Shown piece by piece: positions 1 through 20,560 of a stretch of DNA of 24,223 nt. Made by a program: the position numbers and the translations under genes. This DNA comes from a virus. The stretch is from positions 1-24,223 of the IMG/VR virus record IMGVR_UViG_3300044733_001643, one strand, 5' to 3'. The notes under the pieces are model-generated. The model saw only the letters and a list, made by a program, of their open reading frames with translations. It had not been told where the DNA came from and did not search any database. Position 1 is the first letter of the stretch. Each line of letters starts with the position of its first letter.

Positions 1-355
1 TCGCGGTCAGCACCGCGCGGCGATCGCGCTCGCGCTCCTCGCGGATTGCGGCCCACTCCTCGGCGCGCTTGGCCTCCTTGAGCTGCGCCTCGCGCGCGAG
101 CTTCTCGCGGTCGACCAGCACGACGCGGCGCGGCTCTGGCTGCGCGTCGTAGAACCGAAGGAACTTGCCGGGGATGAACCGCCGCTTGGGGCCGCCGTCC
201 GCAAGACCGTACTCGTTGAGCGCGGCCATCGCGCGCAGGAAGTCCAGCCCGGCGCAACGCTGCATGAAGAGCGTCTGAATTTCGGGGTCGTCGTCGCCGC
301 CACGGAACAGCGCGTTCGCGCGCGCGCGCAACTGGATCAGCTCGTCCTTGGTCAT
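1..355 (-). CDS. Unknown phage protein, 3' end cut by the window
   Basis: This leftward gene starts at an ATG at 353-355 and stays open to the left edge, giving about 118 visible residues that begin MTKDELIQLRARANALF. A good ribosome binding site, AAGGAG, lies at 365-370 on the minus strand, nine bases before the start. The first 80 residues are mixed and look globular; from about residue 80 the chain is very rich in K, E, R and A (KLAREAQLKEAKRAEEWAA), so a long helix or coiled coil is likely. I do not recognise the family. It follows the RecT and HTH genes but is separated from them by a hairpin and a candidate promoter, so it probably begins its own transcription unit. Frame choice rests on codon use and the ribosome site; the other minus frames give arginine-rich low-complexity translations. 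Confidence 0.75.
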   Translation of the reverse strand, partial: MTKDELIQLRARANALFRGGDDDPEIQTLFMQRCAGLDFLRAMAALNEYGLADGGPKRRFIPGKFLRFYDAQPEPRRVVLVDREKLAREAQLKEAKRAEEWAAIREERERDRRAVLTA

Positions 356-395
356 GTCGGTTCGCTCCTTCTGCGGCGCTCATGCGCCACGAACT

Positions 396-415
396 GCGAT
401 ACGGGTCCGTATCGC
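396..415. repeat. 9-bp-arm inverted repeat, candidate operator
   Basis: A perfect dyad: GCGATACGG, two bases GT, then CCGTATCGC. It lies about 40 bp upstream of the left-edge gene and about 110 bp inside the predicted transcript of the promoter at 525-554. The size and symmetry fit a binding site for a dimeric HTH regulator; an RNA hairpin is the alternative, although a two-base loop would force the innermost pairs open. Confidence 0.45.
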
Positions 416-428
416 TCTCCTTAGACAG

Positions 429-452
429 ACACACACACATATGTGTGTGTGT
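429..452. repeat. CA/TG microsatellite palindrome
   Basis: A perfect 24-bp palindrome made of alternating AC then GT, centred between 440 and 441, with (AC)5AT on the left and AT(GT)5 on the right. It is non-coding and unlike anything else in the window. Alternating purine-pyrimidine tracts of this kind favour Z-DNA, and the symmetry allows a cruciform or a strong RNA hairpin. Confidence 0.8.
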
Positions 453-518
453 GTCGGGAGTCGCTGTGCGGTGTCACCGAATGGACACGCGCTGTGCGCG
501 ACGACCACTTGTTGTGGT

Positions 519-560
519 GGGGGGGTTTTAGGGGGGGAGGATTCCGTCTGTCAAGGGGGG
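519..560 (+). repeat. Clustered G-runs with G-quadruplex potential
   Basis: Three guanine runs lie on the plus strand: seven at 519-525, seven at 531-537 separated by TTTTA, and six at 555-560. The two G7 runs can each supply two GGG tracts, so an intramolecular quadruplex is possible. The runs surround and overlap the candidate leftward promoter, whose template strand would be this G-rich strand. Confidence 0.5.
525..554 (-). promoter_or_regulatory. Candidate sigma-70-type promoter, leftward
   Basis: On the minus strand a perfect -35 box TTGACA (549-554) is followed after 18 bases by TAAAAC (525-530), which matches four of six bases of TATAAT. It reads toward the left-edge gene and lies just after the terminator-like hairpin at 608-638, where a new transcription unit would be expected. 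The spacer is unusual: it is a run of C, the complement of the G-runs. Confidence 0.45.
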
Positions 561-654: not shown

Positions 655-1032
655 TCATCGTCCCCATTCGCGCTCGCGCGCGCGATAGGCGATGAGCAGC
701 CGCAGCGCGCGGCGCGCCAGCTCGAACCGCGTCAACGGCTCGATGCCCTCCCAGCGCACCTCCCGCCGGAGGACCGTGCGGGCCGAGCAGCCGACCGCGC
801 GGCCGAGCGCGCGACGGCTGGGCCGCAGGTGGTTCGGCATCAGGTCGAGCGTGATGCCGACCTCGGCGAGCCGACGCACCTCCAGCGAGAGCTGCACGTC
901 GGCGCGGATGATCCGCGCTATGCGGATCGCCTCGTCAAGGTCGACCGCGTGGAAGATGGCCGGGTCTTCCTGCTCGATGTCGAGGAGCGATCGCATCGCG
1001 TGGACGGATGCCTCGTCCACCCGCTCATCCAT
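655..1032 (-). CDS. HTH-like early protein, 125 aa
   Basis: The start chosen is the ATG at 1030-1032, which overlaps the recT stop by eight bases (ATGGATGA) and has a strong GGAGGT site five bases upstream; an open frame extends further upstream but only as the shadow of recT. The protein begins MDERVDEASVHAMRSLLDI, is rich in helix formers, and around residues 75-97 has a segment (SRRALGRAVGCSARTVLRR) that reads like a helix-turn-helix, with a basic C-terminus. I infer a DNA-binding early protein, possibly a regulator or a partner in recombination or replication. No specific family is recognised. The tight coupling to recT suggests joint expression. Confidence 0.72.
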   Translation of the reverse strand: MDERVDEASVHAMRSLLDIEQEDPAIFHAVDLDEAIRIARIIRADVQLSLEVRRLAEVGITLDLMPNHLRPSRRALGRAVGCSARTVLRREVRWEGIEPLTRFELARRALRLLIAYRAREREWGR

Positions 1033-1924
1033 GACCCACCTCCGCGATTCGGTCGATGACCCGCTTGCCCGCGCTGTTCGTCGTGTAGGTCGCCTCCATC
1101 GCGACCTTGAAGGCCAGGCTCGCCTCGATCGACTCGGCCAACGTGGCGTCGATGACCGCGTACGGCCGCTCGTCGCCGTCCACGTCGACGCGGTGTACGA
1201 ACCCCTTCTGCGTCGCGACCTTGGCGATCCTCGTCTTGGCCGCGGTGAGCAGGACCGTCGATGGCGGCATCGGCGTCGGCGCGTCCGATCCGCCGTCGAT
1301 CGGGATTTCGACGGGCGCGGCTGGCGGCGTCGGCACGGGCGACAGGAGCCGCTCCGTGTCCGCGCGGCGCTCCTCGCGCGTCGGCGCTGCTGGCAGCGCC
1401 TTGCGCGGCGACGGCGGCGGCGGCGCGTCCTCCGTGATCTCCGTCTCCCCGTGGGCCTCGACGTACACGGGCGCGGCCCCGAGCGCGTCGGGGCAGTGCG
1501 TCTTGTAGCCCGCGCTGATGCACCGCGCGAACAGCATCGCGCGCGTGTACTTGCGCCAGTTGTCACCGCCAAGCCCGGCCCGCTTGGCATCCTCGACCGA
1601 GAACGAGGACGAGCCGATCTTCTGGCCGCCTGAGTAGAAGTCGATCGTGCAGACCGTGTCGTCCGACTGCACCACGCGGTAGTCGTACTTTCCGCTCCGC
1701 TTGATCGCCGCGGCCATGAGGTTCGAGGACAAGACGGCCTTGCCCTTGATGATGTGCAGCCCGCTCATCGCATCGAAATCCCCGATGCCAAGTCCGCGGC
1801 CGATGATGATCTTGGTCGCGGCCGCCGCCTCCGACTGGATGTCGGGGAACATTCCCGACGCGCGGAAGATCTGCGCCGTGGTCATCGGGTCGAGCTGCGC
1901 GCCGTGTCGTACCAGGTCACTCAT
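1025..1924 (-). CDS. recT: RecT-family single-strand DNA annealing protein
   Basis: The 299-aa product resembles the phage RecT-like recombinases that coat and anneal complementary single strands during homologous recombination. The recognisable core covers about residues 15-155: an early helix (SEAAAATKIIIGRGLGIG), the GLHIIKGKAVLSSNLMAA segment, the VEDAKRAGL motif and the following YTRAMLFARCISAGY and CPDAL motifs, all typical of this group. Residues 165-220 form a proline-rich linker, followed by a distinct C-terminal segment of about 75 residues of unknown role. The start at 1924 is preferred over the ATG nine bases upstream because GGAGGTGG lies six bases before it. A partner exonuclease is not in the window and could lie beyond the left edge. 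The gene overlaps both neighbours, which suggests coupled translation. Confidence 0.82.
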   Translation of the reverse strand: MSDLVRHGAQLDPMTTAQIFRASGMFPDIQSEAAAATKIIIGRGLGIGDFDAMSGLHIIKGKAVLSSNLMAAAIKRSGKYDYRVVQSDDTVCTIDFYSGGQKIGSSSFSVEDAKRAGLGGDNWRKYTRAMLFARCISAGYKTHCPDALGAAPVYVEAHGETEITEDAPPPPSPRKALPAAPTREERRADTERLLSPVPTPPAAPVEIPIDGGSDAPTPMPPSTVLLTAAKTRIAKVATQKGFVHRVDVDGDERPYAVIDATLAESIEASLAFKVAMEATYTTNSAGKRVIDRIAEVGHG

Positions 1925-2012
1925 CGGAGCCACCTCCGATCAGCGAGGCGATGAGTCCCGGCACGACGAGCGCGCCCACGAAAACGAGAGGTGTCAGGTC
2001 GATGTCTGGCAT
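1917..2012 (-). CDS. 31-aa single-pass membrane peptide
   Basis: A very small gene starting at the ATG at 2010-2012, with GGAG five bases upstream, and ending in an eight-base overlap with the recT start. The product starts MPDIDLTPLVFVGALVVPG and is hydrophobic from about residue 7 to 27, enough for one membrane span, with a short GGGSDE tail. It is the first gene after the candidate promoter and operator at 2043-2098. Function is unknown; small phage membrane peptides can be involved in superinfection exclusion, lysis timing or host enzyme control, but nothing in the sequence picks one. An ATG ten codons upstream could extend it. Confidence 0.5.
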   Translation of the reverse strand: MPDIDLTPLVFVGALVVPGLIASLIGGGSDE

Positions 2013-2042: not shown

Positions 2043-2067
2043 GGGGTATGACAGAATGTCATACCCC
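2043..2067. repeat. 11-bp-arm inverted repeat, candidate operator
   Basis: Perfect arms GGGGTATGACA (2043-2053) and TGTCATACCCC (2057-2067) flank three bases GAA. The repeat starts four bases downstream of the -10 box of the leftward candidate promoter, so it would cover the transcription start. This is the classic position of a repressor operator. It lies between the leftward membrane peptide and recT genes and the only rightward gene. If transcribed leftward it would also form a hairpin at the very 5' end of the mRNA. Confidence 0.6.
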
Positions 2068-2070
2068 CGC

Positions 2071-2098
2071 ATCATCGGCGCGATCGACGCCGAGTCAA
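2071..2098 (-). promoter_or_regulatory. Candidate leftward promoter of the recT unit
   Basis: On the minus strand TTGACT (2093-2098, five of six matches to TTGACA) is followed after 16 bases by GATGAT (2071-2076, four of six matches to TATAAT). Its predicted start falls in the inverted repeat at 2043-2067. It points at the membrane peptide, recT and HTH-like genes. The spacer is shorter than the ideal 17, so expect a regulated or moderate promoter. Confidence 0.4.
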
Positions 2099-2166
2099 CA
2101 GGCATTCCCGCAGATTTCCCAAAATCCCCGTGTTCGCGCCGAGCGGTGCGTGATAACGTCCTCGAC

Positions 2167-2412
2167 ATGGATGACGAGCGCGGGATTCCAAGCAAAATGA
2201 AGGCGCGACGCGTGCGCGTCCACGTCACCACCACACTCGCCTACATCCAGCGGATCAGGCTACCGCGCGACGCGGCGCGGTGCAGGTCGATAGACGAAAT
2301 CTCTTGGCGCTCGCTCGACCTCTACACGATCGCGCTCGACCTGTGCGAGGACGACGGCACGCGCGAACTGGTCGCTCAGGCGCGCGGAACGATCATCAGG
2401 CGGCTCATGTGA
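2167..2412 (+). CDS. Only rightward gene: small basic protein, 81 aa
   Basis: This is the only plus-strand reading frame I accept. From the ATG at 2167 it encodes 81 residues starting MDDERGIPSKMKARRVRVH, with C/G-rich third positions like its neighbours. It occupies a gap with no plausible minus-strand gene and ends eight bases inside the convergent end of the late operon. It is basic near the N-terminus, then has IDEISWRSLDLYTIALDLCEDD, which looks helical. No ribosome site is clear at either this ATG or the one at 2197, so the start is uncertain. Its position, divergent from the operator-bearing recT promoter, fits a small regulator. No family is recognised. Confidence 0.5.
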   Translation: MDDERGIPSKMKARRVRVHVTTTLAYIQRIRLPRDAARCRSIDEISWRSLDLYTIALDLCEDDGTRELVAQARGTIIRRLM

Positions 2413-14952: not shown

Positions 14953-15615
14953 TCAGAGAAAGATGCGGCCCTGTGCGCGAGCGATCTCGCGACGAACCAC
15001 CTCGTCAAGGTTGATCGGCGCGCGCTTCGTCGCGGTTGAGGGCACGCTGACGGTCACGACGGTTCGCCGCGGCGCGTCGACGCCGAACCACCGCTTCGCG
15101 GCGACGGGCGACATGATGCCCTTCTTCACCGCGGTGATGAGGGCGTCGGGGTTCGCCTGAAGCGGCGCGAGGCTCACCTCGAGCAGCTTCCAGCGCGAGT
15201 AGACGGTGTGCACGCGGTCGCCGTACTTGCGTCGATCGGCGTCGATCGCCTTGCGGACGCCGCCGTCCTCGGGGACGTAGCCGACGCTCACCGCGTTCAC
15301 GATGCCTTGGCCGACGAGCGCGGCCGCGACCTCCGGGAAGAACTCGCCCTGATAGCCGTCCGGGCGCTGCGCGAACGTGAAGTCCCCGACGATCGTGGAC
15401 TCCTTCCGCTTGAGTCCGTTGCATCGGCCCACTGGCTGCGCGTAGTCGTGGTTCCAGAAGAGCGTCGGGTTCCTGTCGAACTCGGTCGAGTTCATTCCCT
15501 GCGGGATCAGCACCTCGCCGTCGCGGTCGAGCGTCTCCGCGGTGATGACCGCGGTGAATCCTTTGGCGGTGCCCCTGAGTTCGGCGGTAAGCGCCTTGCG
15601 GGTGATGGTGTTCAT
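14953..15615 (-). CDS. HK97-type prohead protease
   Basis: The 220-aa product matches the U35 prohead protease family that cleaves the capsid delta domain during maturation. Catalytic residues can be placed: H56 in FWNHDY, S110 in VNAVSVGY and E146 in LLEVSLAP. Early residues FTAVITAETLDRDGEVLIP are the usual first strands. It begins with an ATGA overlap to the portal gene and sits just before the capsid gene. The last 40 residues (APINLDEVVRREIARAQGRIFL) are a helical extension. The 89 bases between this gene and the capsid start hold a ribosome site but no promoter or hairpin I would defend. Confidence 0.92.
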   Translation of the reverse strand: MNTITRKALTAELRGTAKGFTAVITAETLDRDGEVLIPQGMNSTEFDRNPTLFWNHDYAQPVGRCNGLKRKESTIVGDFTFAQRPDGYQGEFFPEVAAALVGQGIVNAVSVGYVPEDGGVRKAIDADRRKYGDRVHTVYSRWKLLEVSLAPLQANPDALITAVKKGIMSPVAAKRWFGVDAPRRTVVTVSVPSTATKRAPINLDEVVRREIARAQGRIFL

Positions 15616-18269
15616 TCGATTCCTGCCTCCCTGTTCAGTGCGCGGCGCGTCTCCTCGGCGATCGGCGAGGCCTCGATGTCGCGCGCGATCTGCTCCATCT
15701 CCGCGTCGAACGCTGGCTGCATGGAGCAGCGGCAGTTCGGATGCAGCGGCGGGCCGCTCACGTCCTCGAAGTCAAGGAGCATCTCCTTGTTCTTTCCTTC
15801 GGCATCAGGAACACCGAATAGCAGATCACCCTTTTGGAAGAACGGCTGATCGACAGGAACTGGCCTATTGCCGTACTGCTTCGCGGCGGCCTCGCAGAAC
15901 TCGCACGGATCAGGCGCGAGCAGCCACGTCTTCCCAGTGACCATGCCAGTTGACTGCCACGCCTCGATCTCTGCGCTGCGCGCGGCGCGCGCGGCCTCGG
16001 TGCGGGCGACCGTGCGCGCGCGGTTCCACGAACCGTCCTGATCCTTCTGGCCCTCGGCCCAAGTCTGCACGCGGTCGGCAAGCTCGTCAACCGTCTCGCC
16101 GTTCTCAAGCCCAGTGCCGAGCACCTCGCGAACCTTGACGCTGGTCGTCTCGGTCACTCCCTGCGCGGTCTGCCGGGCGAGGCGGATCGACTCCGTCTCC
16201 GCGTACTTCGCGAGGTCTTCGCGCTCAAGGTCGAAGTCGACGTTCGTCGCGACCTTGGCGACGGTGTCGATGCCGATGGTCACGCCAGTCTGGATGGCCT
16301 CGCGCAGGTACGGCGCGAGCGCGTCGACCATCGCGCGCTGGTAGTTCCGCGACCGTAGCAGCCGCTCGGCCTGCGCGATGAGTTCGTCGGTCGGACGCTC
16401 GGACTTCGCGAGCGCATCGAGCAAGTCCTTCATCTGCTTGTCGAACACCTGCGACACGCCGCGGACCATGTCCTCCTCGGACTGGTTGATCTTTCGGCCC
16501 TCGGACTCTGCGCTCTTGGTCTGTATCCGATCGGATACAGAGCCTTCCCAGAGTGCCTTGTGAGAGACGCGCTTCGACTTGGCGCACCCGCAGCCGCAGA
16601 GCGCGTCCTTGCGCTCGACTGACTTCGCTCCGATCTGCTCTCCGCTTGTCGGCGCTTGCGGAGGAACGGCAGATGCGCCTTGTTGGATCGGGTTAAAGAT
16701 GGACGCAATCGTCTCCGGCGAGATGGTCGGGAACGCAGCCGATGCGATGGACACCGCCGAATCCTTCGGAAGTTCGCCGAGCTGGATCGACTTCGCCAGA
16801 TCGACAAGACTTGAAATCTGCGCCCCGTTGAGCGCGGTATCTGCGATTGCCTCTCCGGCGGGAACTGGCTGTTGTGCAGAAGATGGGCCTGCGACAGGCC
16901 GAGCAGGAGCGATCGGAGATGCGATGGGCGTCGGAACGCCACCAATCGGCTGCCCATTGACCATGAGTCGATCCGCATTCCTATCGTCGGAAGGCTCAAG
17001 ACCCTCCTGCTGTCGCGCCTCGTTGGCGGTCAGGATGCCGCCCTGCACATACGAAAGCCGCTTGCCCGACTCCTGCACCTCGTCGCGCTTGACGGGGTTG
17101 TCGTAGGCTAGGAACGCGTCGTCCTCGATGCCGAACAGGGGAAGAAGCGACTGGTTCAGCACCTCTTCGTCCATGCGGCACGCGGGCAGGATGGTCGTCT
17201 CCTTCCAAGATGCGAAGCCCACCGTCGCGCTGGCGAGGTTCGGGTCGTTCGCGCGCAGCATCGAGACGGGCACGCCGAAGATCGCGGCGATCTCCTCAAC
17301 GATCTCCTCGCGGCCCTCCAAGTCCTTCGGCGGGAACGACAGCGGCTTCAGGTCGACGTCGCCGGTCACGGCGAGGAACTTGCCAGTGCGCTGCGTGCCG
17401 CGGACCTTGTTCTCCACCTCCGCGGTGAACCTGTCGAGTTCGGCCTCGCTCGCGTTGCCCTTGATGACGGCGAGGTAGTCTGGACGGCTCTTGTTCTTGA
17501 AGAAGAAGTAGTCCATCTCGTGCAGCGCCTCGTTGGAGGTCACCGCACCCCACGCGGCCTCGACCTTGCCGAGGCCGTAGTACATATCGCGCGGGTTCGG
17601 GTACTTGAAGTGGATCACCTCGTCAGGCGCGAAGTCGACTTTCTGCGGGTCGGTCGGCCCGTATCGGTAGCCCTTGATGAACGGCTCTCCGCGCGCGCCT
17701 TCGCCCGGCACGATCTCCGTCCACTGGCTAGGCATCGTCCACAGTTCGGCAGGCACGCCGAGACGGCGGTCGATCACCGGGTGGACATAGGCGTTGCCAG
17801 TGAGTTCAAGGTAAAGCACGCGCAGGACGGTCGCGTCGAAGCCGTTCTGGTAGGGGTTGACCCGCGCGAGAAGGTCGAGCAGCGGGTGCCTGTCGGTGAC
17901 GGCTTCGTAGTCGTCGCCGAACTCCGCGGCCTTCGACATCGCGAACCGCGATGGGAGCTGCGCGAGGTCGCCGGACAGATACGCCTTCGTTCGGCGATCC
18001 GTCCTGCGCGTGTTCCAGAGCTTCGCGCCAGCGCCGCGCGACCTGACGTACAGCCGAAGCGGCTGCGACGCGACGGCGATCGCGTTCAGCCGAGCCGCGG
18101 CATAGACCCAAGACGAGCAGTAGCGCACCGCCGCCTGATGGCTGAAGTCGGGACGCTTCACGTCCCGGCCGAGGAAGGTCATTCCGCTCGCGCTGGTGAA
18201 CTTCGGCGGCACGTCGTCGGTGAACGCCGCCTTGGTGAATGCCGCCTTGAGTCGTTGGATCAGCGTCAT
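15612..18269 (-). CDS. Portal protein fused to a MuF-like domain
   Basis: An 885-aa protein starting MTLIQRLKAAFTKAAFTDD; the ATG at 18269 overlaps the terminase stop as ATGA. Residues 1-430 are an HK97-type portal (QAAVRYCSSWVYAAARLN, YLELTGNAYVHPV, DEVIHFKYPNPRDMYYGLG, then ILTANEARQQEGLEP at 412-426). A proline- and alanine-rich linker follows, then an LNGAQISSLVDLAKSI module (480-528), a CGCGCAK cysteine cluster at 558-564, and a MuF-like domain from about 600 on (TVARTEAARAARSAEIEAW, PCEFC, PPLHPNCRC). Portals form the dodecamer for DNA entry; MuF proteins are internal minor head proteins. The usual arrangement is two genes; here they are one. Confidence 0.88.
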   Translation of the reverse strand: MTLIQRLKAAFTKAAFTDDVPPKFTSASGMTFLGRDVKRPDFSHQAAVRYCSSWVYAAARLNAIAVASQPLRLYVRSRGAGAKLWNTRRTDRRTKAYLSGDLAQLPSRFAMSKAAEFGDDYEAVTDRHPLLDLLARVNPYQNGFDATVLRVLYLELTGNAYVHPVIDRRLGVPAELWTMPSQWTEIVPGEGARGEPFIKGYRYGPTDPQKVDFAPDEVIHFKYPNPRDMYYGLGKVEAAWGAVTSNEALHEMDYFFFKNKSRPDYLAVIKGNASEAELDRFTAEVENKVRGTQRTGKFLAVTGDVDLKPLSFPPKDLEGREEIVEEIAAIFGVPVSMLRANDPNLASATVGFASWKETTILPACRMDEEVLNQSLLPLFGIEDDAFLAYDNPVKRDEVQESGKRLSYVQGGILTANEARQQEGLEPSDDRNADRLMVNGQPIGGVPTPIASPIAPARPVAGPSSAQQPVPAGEAIADTALNGAQISSLVDLAKSIQLGELPKDSAVSIASAAFPTISPETIASIFNPIQQGASAVPPQAPTSGEQIGAKSVERKDALCGCGCAKSKRVSHKALWEGSVSDRIQTKSAESEGRKINQSEEDMVRGVSQVFDKQMKDLLDALAKSERPTDELIAQAERLLRSRNYQRAMVDALAPYLREAIQTGVTIGIDTVAKVATNVDFDLEREDLAKYAETESIRLARQTAQGVTETTSVKVREVLGTGLENGETVDELADRVQTWAEGQKDQDGSWNRARTVARTEAARAARSAEIEAWQSTGMVTGKTWLLAPDPCEFCEAAAKQYGNRPVPVDQPFFQKGDLLFGVPDAEGKNKEMLLDFEDVSGPPLHPNCRCSMQPAFDAEMEQIARDIEASPIAEETRRALNREAGIE
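16521..16540. repeat. 20-bp perfect palindrome inside the portal-MuF gene
   Basis: CTGTATCCGA followed at once by its exact reverse complement TCGGATACAG. It lies in the linker region coding SDRIQTKS. Perfect 20-bp dyads are rare by chance in coding sequence; it could be a regulator binding site inside the late operon, an RNA hairpin that pauses ribosomes between domains, or coincidence. Confidence 0.6.
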
Positions 18270-19444
18270 ATGGCTCTCGTCAGGAACGGCTTCCGCGCGC
18301 GCCTTGCGTGGACGGCGAGCGCGAGCGCGCACACTCCGTCATCGTGTCCCGCCGTCGCCTCGTACGAGACGTGCTTCCCCGAGTATCGGTATCCGAAGCC
18401 CTCCAGTTCCGAGCGCAGCCACCCGTCTGGGAACCGAATCTCCATCGTCTGCACCGCGATCTGGAGTCCTTCCATCAACTGCTGCTTCGACTGCGAAGTG
18501 AACTTGAAGCCATCGACGCGACGGCAGACGCGCTTCAAGTCCTCCACGATCGGGTCGCCGACGCCCGTCGAGTCGATCTGCGCGGGCGCTTCGCGGATGA
18601 TCTTGGCGAGCTTCTCCCGCGTGAGCGCCCAAGGTCCCTGCCATCGGTCGAGCATCGCGACCGCGCCGTCCGCGTCGAGTCCGACGATGACCGTGAAGTC
18701 CTGGCTTTTCGCGAGGTCGACGCCGTAGACCTCGGCGGGTCGCGTCGAGAGCGGCCCGATGCACTGGCGCAGCGCGTCGAGTCCGAAAGGATTGCCGCCG
18801 TCCTCGGCTGGCACTCCCTCGTACTCCTGCGCGAAGACTTCGGGCGGCAGCGACCGCCGCGCCGCCTCGACCTCGTCCGGGTCAATGTGCGGATTCTGGC
18901 GCGTTCCGATGCGAAAGGCACGCATCGTGCCAGTAGTGTCACCTTCCGCCTCAGTGAACAGGCGGTGGAAATCTCCCGTCCCCTTCGGCGTGCCGAGGAA
19001 GAGCGCACTGCCCTTGCGGTCGGCGAGGGTCGGCCGCGCCGCGTTGCGCCACCATTCAAGGAGGTGCGGGACGAACCCGGCCTCGTCCACGACGATCAGG
19101 TCGTAGTCTCGGCCTCGGCCCGCGTCGACATCCTCAAGCGACCAGAAGTCGATGACGCCGCCTGTCTTGACTTCGATCCGCTTCTCGACGCGATCCATGC
19201 GCGCGGTCACGGGCGCGAGCGCGCGCTCGATGTCGCGCATGGGGTCGGCGAGGTACTTGTAGGTCGGCGCGAACCAGCCGACCTTGCGTCGGTTGATGGC
19301 GGCGCGCTGCGCCTTGACCTTGCCGTAGGTGGTCTTGCCCCAGCGGCGTCCGATCTCAAGGACGCTGAACCGAGCGAGCGCCGCATCGACCGTCAACTGC
19401 GACGGATGCAGGATCGAGGACAGCGGCTTAAGTTGCACCCTCAT
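18266..19444 (-). CDS. terL: Terminase large subunit
   Basis: The 392-aa product is the packaging ATPase and nuclease. ATPase motifs: Walker A GRRWGKTT at 32-39, Walker B DLIVVDEA at 115-122, and coupling motif GTPKG at 151-155. RNase H-like nuclease acidic residues: D243 in GVDLAKS, D291 in IDSTGVGD and D368/D369 in GHDDG. The length is slightly below the usual 420-550, owing to a short N-terminus before Walker A. It overlaps the small subunit stop by ATGA. Family: HK97 or P22-like TerL with the late GHDDG motif. Confidence 0.95.
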   Translation of the reverse strand: MRVQLKPLSSILHPSQLTVDAALARFSVLEIGRRWGKTTYGKVKAQRAAINRRKVGWFAPTYKYLADPMRDIERALAPVTARMDRVEKRIEVKTGGVIDFWSLEDVDAGRGRDYDLIVVDEAGFVPHLLEWWRNAARPTLADRKGSALFLGTPKGTGDFHRLFTEAEGDTTGTMRAFRIGTRQNPHIDPDEVEAARRSLPPEVFAQEYEGVPAEDGGNPFGLDALRQCIGPLSTRPAEVYGVDLAKSQDFTVIVGLDADGAVAMLDRWQGPWALTREKLAKIIREAPAQIDSTGVGDPIVEDLKRVCRRVDGFKFTSQSKQQLMEGLQIAVQTMEIRFPDGWLRSELEGFGYRYSGKHVSYEATAGHDDGVCALALAVHARRARKPFLTRAI

Positions 19445-20395: not shown

Positions 20396-20560
20396 CTACT
20401 GCTCCGCTTCAAGCTCCACAATGCGCGCGCGCGTCGACACGATGTCCGCGTCGACGGAGCGCACCTCGTCCTCGTTGCCCGCGTCCCACGCGAGGTGGCG
20501 CGCCGTCTCGAGGCGCGCGAGTTTGTTCCGCGCAAGGGAGAGTTTCTCAGCGTTCGTCAT
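20396..20560 (-). CDS. 54-aa helical protein
   Basis: A small gene starting at the ATG at 20558-20560, with GGGGGA upstream, and ending TAG at 20396-20398. The product starts MTNAEKLSLARNKLARLET and continues as an almost continuous charged helix to VELEAEQ, so a coiled coil is likely. It lies between a fibre-like gene and the methyltransferase, twelve bases after the previous stop. Codon use matches the neighbours. Function is unknown. Confidence 0.65.
   Translation of the reverse strand: MTNAEKLSLARNKLARLETARHLAWDAGNEDEVRSVDADIVSTRARIVELEAEQ

Follow-up and report, generated by a model that had tools for sequence, protein, structure and literature searches.

Genes and Signals of the Region

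The window analyzed here, a stretch of 24,223 bases, is an IMG/VR viral record in which the PHROG-named genes (terminase, capsid, and recT) all run leftward. A RecT-like single-strand annealing protein is encoded at 1025–1933 on the minus strand (PHROG 561, E = 5.7e-14; probable start ATG at 1924). It is preceded by a leader ORF of 31 amino acids (MPDIDLTPLV..., 1917–2012, minus strand) with one likely membrane helix and followed by the third gene of the unit, which encodes a protein of 125 amino acids (655–1032, minus strand). Both the leader ORF and the third gene are conserved in relatives. We refer to the product of the third gene as HTH-like: hits to helix-turn-helix (HTH) motifs were weak, below threshold and confined to some members of its family, and the window's own protein gave none. 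Eight of 18 family members matched phrog_13122, whose function is unknown, with a best E of 1.2e-4.

The only gene of the region in the opposite orientation (2167–2412, plus strand) encodes an 81-amino-acid protein of a new family. In total, nine close pairs, some of which share members, differ by 105 synonymous vs. 12 non-synonymous codon changes, and we take the ORF to be truly coding. A four-helix protein was predicted, with a pLDDT of 90.7 when 23 sequences were used vs. 65.9 with 13. The protein had no match in Pfam, PHROGs, a phage collection, or the PDB sequences, and a fold search gave no clear match: the best structure, YmgB/AriR (2oxl; Z 5.6, rmsd 3.0, 60 aligned residues, 5% identity), lies below the level that the tool regards as meaningful for helical proteins, and the next entries had Z 3.9; Foldseek gave an E of 1.9. 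No ribosome site is evident ahead of this gene. By eye, a possible −10 box, GATAAC (2152–2157, plus strand), was found 9 nt before its ATG, and L012, L016, and L014 have TATATT, TACAAT, and TACACT, respectively, 7–9 nt ahead of the start; a message starting from such a box could perhaps be leaderless.

Between the recT unit and the rightward ORF, where a reading of the sequence alone (the sequence-only reading) had placed it, lies a leftward promoter-like site, TTGACT-16-GATGAT (minus strand; −35 box at 2093–2098, −10 box at 2071–2076). It matches the consensus at 9 of 12 positions, and the interval 1900–2500 holds two sites of this kind on both strands, compared to a mean of 0.1 in shuffles. 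The perfect inverted repeat with 11-bp arms claimed in the same reading was likewise recovered. This palindrome, GGGGTATGACA-GAA-TGTCATACCCC (element 1, 2043–2067), consists of arms at 2043–2053 and 2057–2067 around a 3-nt spacer and reads GGGGTATGACA-TTC-TGTCATACCCC on the minus strand (2067–2043); three bases, rather than the four counted earlier, separate it from the −10 box. Its conserved core, GACA-N3-TGTC (2050–2060), contains the proposed half sites of an operator, and the symmetric site overlaps the predicted start of the promoter, which probably lies near 2064. On the minus strand, promoter and palindrome are followed by a second hairpin, TGCCGC-AGGA-GCGGCA (element 2, 2026–2041), by GGAG as the putative ribosome-binding site of the leader ORF (2018–2021), and by the 31-codon ORF itself, which runs into recT. 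An intrinsic terminator at element 1 was ruled out because no T run follows it; the sole terminator-like site in 1900–2500 is located at 2228–2205.

Chance Expectation and Other Copies of the Core

The palindrome could in principle be a chance repeat devoid of function. Dinucleotide shuffling of the window (100 replicates) gave an average of 0.28 repeats with arms of at least 11 bp and spacers of 0–10 nt; the window itself has four, two of which belong to the (CA)n/(TG)n stretch between 428 and 455. By itself, the palindrome is thus only mildly unlikely by chance. However, 18 of 25 leaders share its place and core and show changes that compensate one another, and this conservation in relatives rules out a chance repeat, to which we give next to no credence. 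Another perfect palindrome with 11-bp arms, TCTGTATCCGATCGGATACAGA, was noted at 16520–16541 inside an ORF of 906 amino acids (15612–18332).

No second copy of the central 17-mer was found in the contig with up to three mismatches. Copies of the half site GGGTATGACA were not enriched in the window, with 7 matches at up to two mismatches vs. 8.5 expected. The bare core GACANNNTGTC occurs three times in the window vs. 0.44 expected, so that it might conceivably have a wider role; the other two copies, at 20436 and 23088, lie within ORFs. Across 21 records we counted 32 bare cores, namely 15 leader sites, three second copies (in L016, L018, and L020), and 14 others. Five of these 14 were placed, two in the window and three in G015, all of them inside ORFs.

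Conservation of the Palindrome in Related Phages

A search with RecT yielded 60 viral loci, of which those nearest the window also have the rightward protein. Searches with the rightward protein yielded 24 viral loci, many on contigs already found; one locus belongs to an assembly labeled Rhodobacteraceae. Further searches for relatives gave no new contig. A scan with the leader pattern returned 18 stretches, 17 of which were on known contigs. The remaining one, L108, was without relatives of the genes tested and was counted as a chance match.

Initially, 24 leaders were examined, those of the window and of 23 loci, with L004 and L010 omitted because they duplicate the window and L009, respectively. 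GACA-N3-TGTC was present at the same place in 17 of them, while the other seven (L008 and L083–L088) lack the core but retain the rightward gene, a point against the operator reading. One more leader, L116, was found later through the other hairpin type and carries the palindrome, bringing the total to 18 of 25. The core is intact in all palindrome-bearing leaders except L061, where one base is changed. Some leaders form near-identical pairs, and the palindrome bearers comprise 12 distinct 17-mers.

The position of the core relative to the promoter is also conserved. When the −10 box was sought in the 22 nt preceding the core, the core began 7–10 nt after the best-scoring box in all 18 palindrome-bearing leaders. 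Most palindrome-bearing relatives have GAT(G/A)(A/C)T or TAGA(G/C)T as the −10 box; L007 has TACATT and L116 TACGAT. The −35 sequence TTGACT is kept in L006, L009, L011, L012, and L015 and has diverged elsewhere (TAGACG, TAGCCT, and others). For L007, L013, L016, L018, L020, L067, and L116, the promoter score is no higher than the 95% level obtained with random stretches of the window, which counts against the operator reading.

In L067 (on G015) and L116 a different gene occupies the place of recT, and the palindrome and the genes for the HTH-like and rightward proteins are kept. The replacement gene encodes one shared protein containing LKRTICKGA, which we take to be another type of recombinase.

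Constraint on Core and Flanks

The two parts of the palindrome vary in different ways. The core is fixed in 11 of the 12 distinct 17-mers and differs by one base in the twelfth, and the spacer is always 3 nt long but has seven different sequences. Across the 44 cells of the inner four pairs in 11 distinct 17-mers there was no double change and one break. Pairs 5–7, in contrast, show double changes in 13 of 33 cells (11 distinct rows), a count that none of 500 shuffles reached. The covariation score was 0.384; shuffles gave 0.086 and sliding the partner no more than 0.098, and again none of 500 shuffles attained the observed score. Two of the five covariation measures stayed within the shuffle range, namely double-change pairs (344 of 500) and additional pair types (127 of 500). 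Pair 5 is TA or GC and pair 6 AT, CG, or GC, while pair 7 is TA, GC, or AT, with mismatches in about half of the rows.

Fixed half sites around a free spacer of constant length are typical of DNA sites bound by dimers, and we read the fixed core and free spacer of element 1 as a probable protein site of this kind. The flanks, whose pairing is kept irrespective of base identity, read to us as a probable RNA stem. They are also an argument for a rival reading, in which element 1 and element 2 form a two-hairpin leader that would guard the 5′ end from RppH/RNase E or aid the start of translation, and in which the symmetry of the DNA is a by-product. Pairs 5–7 covary with free identity (GC, CG, and AU) as this reading would have it, even between L016 and L018: one of them has T-A at pair 5 and the other has G-C, despite an identical rightward protein and HTH motif. 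This matched change in the presence of the same regulators is not explained by protein binding and speaks against a reading by protein alone. On the other hand, a purely structural RNA role does not fit the inner pairs, which never covary, nor the loop, which is always 3 nt long with free sequence, nor the lack of G-U pairs, of which element 1 has none among 77 paired cells out of 84 counted.

A second copy of the core, GACATTTTGTC, was found at the start of the rightward gene in L016, L018, and L020. Its outer arms are unpaired, which together with the invariant core argues against a pure RNA role. Within 160 nt before the promoter, an exact second core was detected in 1 of 11 lineages (L016, with L018 and L020 alike), and diverged copies could escape this count except in the window, where up to three mismatches were allowed. 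The chance of such a second core in any of the 11 lineages is 0.022 in a post hoc test from which near-duplicate lineages were omitted.

Hairpins in the Leader

The transcript of element 1 (minus strand) is predicted to form a 5′-terminal hairpin. The sequence-only reading had missed that the transcribed palindrome would be the first of two tandem leader hairpins, with outer pairs that covary as in RNA. Eight leaders were folded from the predicted start, and all eight formed the element 1 hairpin, with z-scores of −1.45 to −3.78 in seven leaders and −0.92 in L061. Folds of 80 nt that included promoter DNA favored other pairings in L014, L016, L017, and L020. With a start at 2064, the RNA would lack the three outermost G-C pairs of the window palindrome, a further point against the two-hairpin RNA reading.

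Element 2, a G+C-rich hairpin with a loop of 3–5 bases, precedes the start codon in all 24 leaders first examined, and GGAG lies ahead of the start in 24 of the 25 leaders, L008 being the exception. Several properties of element 2 agree with the two-hairpin reading of the leader. G-U pairs are present in 6 of 24 leaders, some closing the loop, and hairpins of the same type, often with the loop A-N-G-A, recur ahead of further genes (position 355 of the window, two more starts in G001, four in G015, and elsewhere). The seven leaders without the core still have hairpins before the ribosome site; in L083–L085 a hairpin GCGGC-AGGA-GCCGC occupies the place of element 1. Hairpins at the 5′ end that stabilize mRNA are known (PMC3997798). 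Weighing these points against the invariant core, we regard an RNA role alone as possible but doubtful.

In a loose hairpin scan, shuffled strands gave about 6 hits each vs. 3 and 6 for those of the window. Single hits therefore mean little; it is the repeated form GCCGC-loop-GCGGC-AGAA-n-GGAG that stands out. Related hairpins were noted at L056 6838 and L059 2382, loci in which no rightward gene was found and where a promoter-like TATAGT or TATGAT is followed by CGGGA-ATGA-TCCCG and then by GAAAGGAAG before ATG. The leader hairpin may thus be more widely spread than the phages with the rightward gene.

The two stem-loops of the early leftward transcript could also act directly on RNA polymerase and cause antitermination. 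In favor of this possibility, the predicted transcript has two hairpins within its first ∼40 nt, which resembles the two-stem-loop putL of HK022. The hairpins are simple and variable in sequence, however, and only one is present between promoter and ribosome site in L008, L086, L087, and L088 (by eye), as well as in L116, where element 1 stands alone. There was also no meaningful Rfam match in 1900–2450 (one snoRNA hit, E 4.3). We consider a put-like activity very improbable.

A second, longer structured leader was observed before the gene at 2–355 (355–560, minus strand). Its putative promoter, TTGACA-18-TAAAAC (554–525), is followed by a conserved block with GTGTCC, by the (CA)n/(TG)n palindrome (428–455), whose flanking CTCC and GGAG could pair as judged by eye, by GCGATACGG-GT-CCGTATCGC (396–415), and by a hairpin of the element 2 type, GGCGC-ATGA-GCGCC, before AAGGAG. 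This plan is kept in several relatives, some of which have (TA)n where the window has (CA)n. Low-complexity ORFs of repeated MRRGLRR units were noted in the early region of G001 (L091 3475–4415).

Candidate Binding Proteins

The sequence-only reading had named both the HTH-like protein and the rightward product as possible repressors. Both are indeed conserved, and the former matches the palindrome's distribution slightly better, although weakly. Trees were built for 19 phages, 14 with and 5 without the palindrome; L006, L011, L017, L075, L083, and L088 were left out as near copies or for want of an HTH gene on the contig. In the tree of the HTH-like protein, the palindrome bearers fall on one side of a split with a support of 28 (45 with both proteins joined). 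Element 1 may have been gained once, but tree supports were low (33 and 52, then 28 and 45), with rooting by midpoint or a chosen outgroup. Two residues of the HTH-like protein track the palindrome, R73 (14 of 14 bearers vs. 0 of 5 non-bearers) and R90 (14 of 14 vs. 1 of 5).

In the alternative case, the 81-amino-acid protein would bind the palindrome and act as a divergent repressor facing the operon. Its gene is the lone opposite one and is conserved with the region even where the gene in the place of recT differs, the second core in L016, L018, and L020 overlaps the gene's own start, and its residue R17 tracks the palindrome (14 of 14 vs. 1 of 5). Against this, the predicted four-helix fold has no clear match, and the tree of the rightward protein mixes phages with and without the palindrome. 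This mixing is not significant, as a single palindrome clade was not rejected with the rightward-protein data (AU test, p = 0.26). In view of this value, the split support of 28, and the three columns of the rightward protein that pass the same association threshold, our preference for the HTH-like protein is weak, a lean and not a result. Because the HTH split is supported by only 28, we put the probability of our preferred explanation, set out below, at no more than about 0.45; a divergent repressor encoded by the rightward gene seems improbable to us, though less so than a put-like leader.

Genes for lysogeny were sought in records of which ten reach at least 27 kb (largest 35.7 kb) and none is shown to be complete. 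Neither a tyrosine integrase (PF00589, 0 of 21 records) nor a CI-type HTH_3 repressor (PF01381, 0 of 14) nor a serine recombinase/resolvase (PF00239, 0 of 14) was found in these records, which may be fragments. A lysogeny switch is therefore unsupported, if still conceivable.

Interpretation

In this group of uncultivated bacterial viruses, the predicted start of the recombination-gene message coincides with a mirror-image site whose core is fixed and whose flanks change in matched pairs, which suggests a brake operated by a virus protein together with letters that form a hairpin. The explanation that we prefer, at the probability given above, is that the palindrome is an operator over the start of the recombinase operon, that the HTH-like product is its most likely binder, and that the transcript of the same bases is in addition a 5′-terminal hairpin. 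The operator would overlie the start point of the leftward operon of leader ORF, recT, and HTH-like gene. Bound as a dimer to the two GACA/TGTC half sites, a phage protein, for which the product of the third gene is the likeliest candidate, would block RNA polymerase, so that the operon would limit its own early burst. Since the site would extend from about +1 to +20, the same bases would be transcribed as the first of two tandem 5′ stem-loops, and their use as RNA would keep the outer base pairs matched.

The region had been read as an early switch in which a repressor would block the recT unit. What endures of that proposal is the conserved promoter/operator-like region before the recT unit; the two-state switch gives way to a proposed negative autoregulation, because the HTH-like gene lies inside the operon that it would repress.

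A more far-reaching possibility is a 25-bp sequence that is read twice, as double-stranded DNA by the operon's own repressor, which would fix the inner core, and after transcription as the first of two 5′-terminal RNA stem-loops, which would fix nothing but the pairing of the outer bases. We regard this full double reading as rather unlikely. If true, it would tie initiation and fate of a message together in one palindrome, with two selective forces that can be separated base by base. As natural variants already separate the sequence-fixed core from the pairing-fixed flanks, the dual reading could be tested with few mutants. Operators over start points are common; to our knowledge, a role of the transcribed operator as RNA is rarely considered. 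The region also puts within experimental reach a leader hairpin that recurs in this uncultivated phage group and two phage proteins that are conserved but unclassified.

Comparison With Known Systems

Among the matches listed in literature searches on put RNA, 5′ hairpins, conserved hairpins upstream of ribosome sites, autorepression of recT, and YmgB, no paper dealt with this region. Phage or plasmid operons that are autoregulated through an operator over the start point are a known kind. The autorepression of repABC is one example (PMC4492784). The present region resembles such operons in having a palindrome at the predicted start and an HTH-like gene downstream in the operon. It differs in its candidate site with the core GACA-N3-TGTC, in its two proteins, for which no named family was found, and in a possible second use of the site as an RNA hairpin.

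Lambda is a classical divergent repressor switch. The CI/MOR pair of TP901-1 is another (PMC7250872). These switches and our region have in common a palindrome flanked by two opposed genes; unlike the switches, most relatives have one intergenic core, and neither a CI-type HTH_3 repressor nor an integrase was found in the fragments searched. Divergent switches are the nearest DNA analogue, but they lack support here.

Two RNA systems also invite comparison. For ompA and papA, 5′-terminal stem-loops reportedly stabilize the mRNA. The putL site of HK022 lies just downstream of PL and comprises two stem-loops in about 70 nt (PMC9378689). The window likewise has two predicted stem-loops just downstream of its early leftward promoter (L116 has one), whereas its stems are simple and of variable sequence, the number of hairpins varies among relatives, and no meaningful Rfam match was obtained. 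With the stabilizing stem-loops treated in PMC3997798, the region shares a hairpin a few nucleotides from the predicted 5′ end and a ribosome site downstream; it differs from them in its fixed core sequence, which stability alone would not need. The put RNA and the stabilizing 5′ hairpins are the nearest RNA analogues of this leader.
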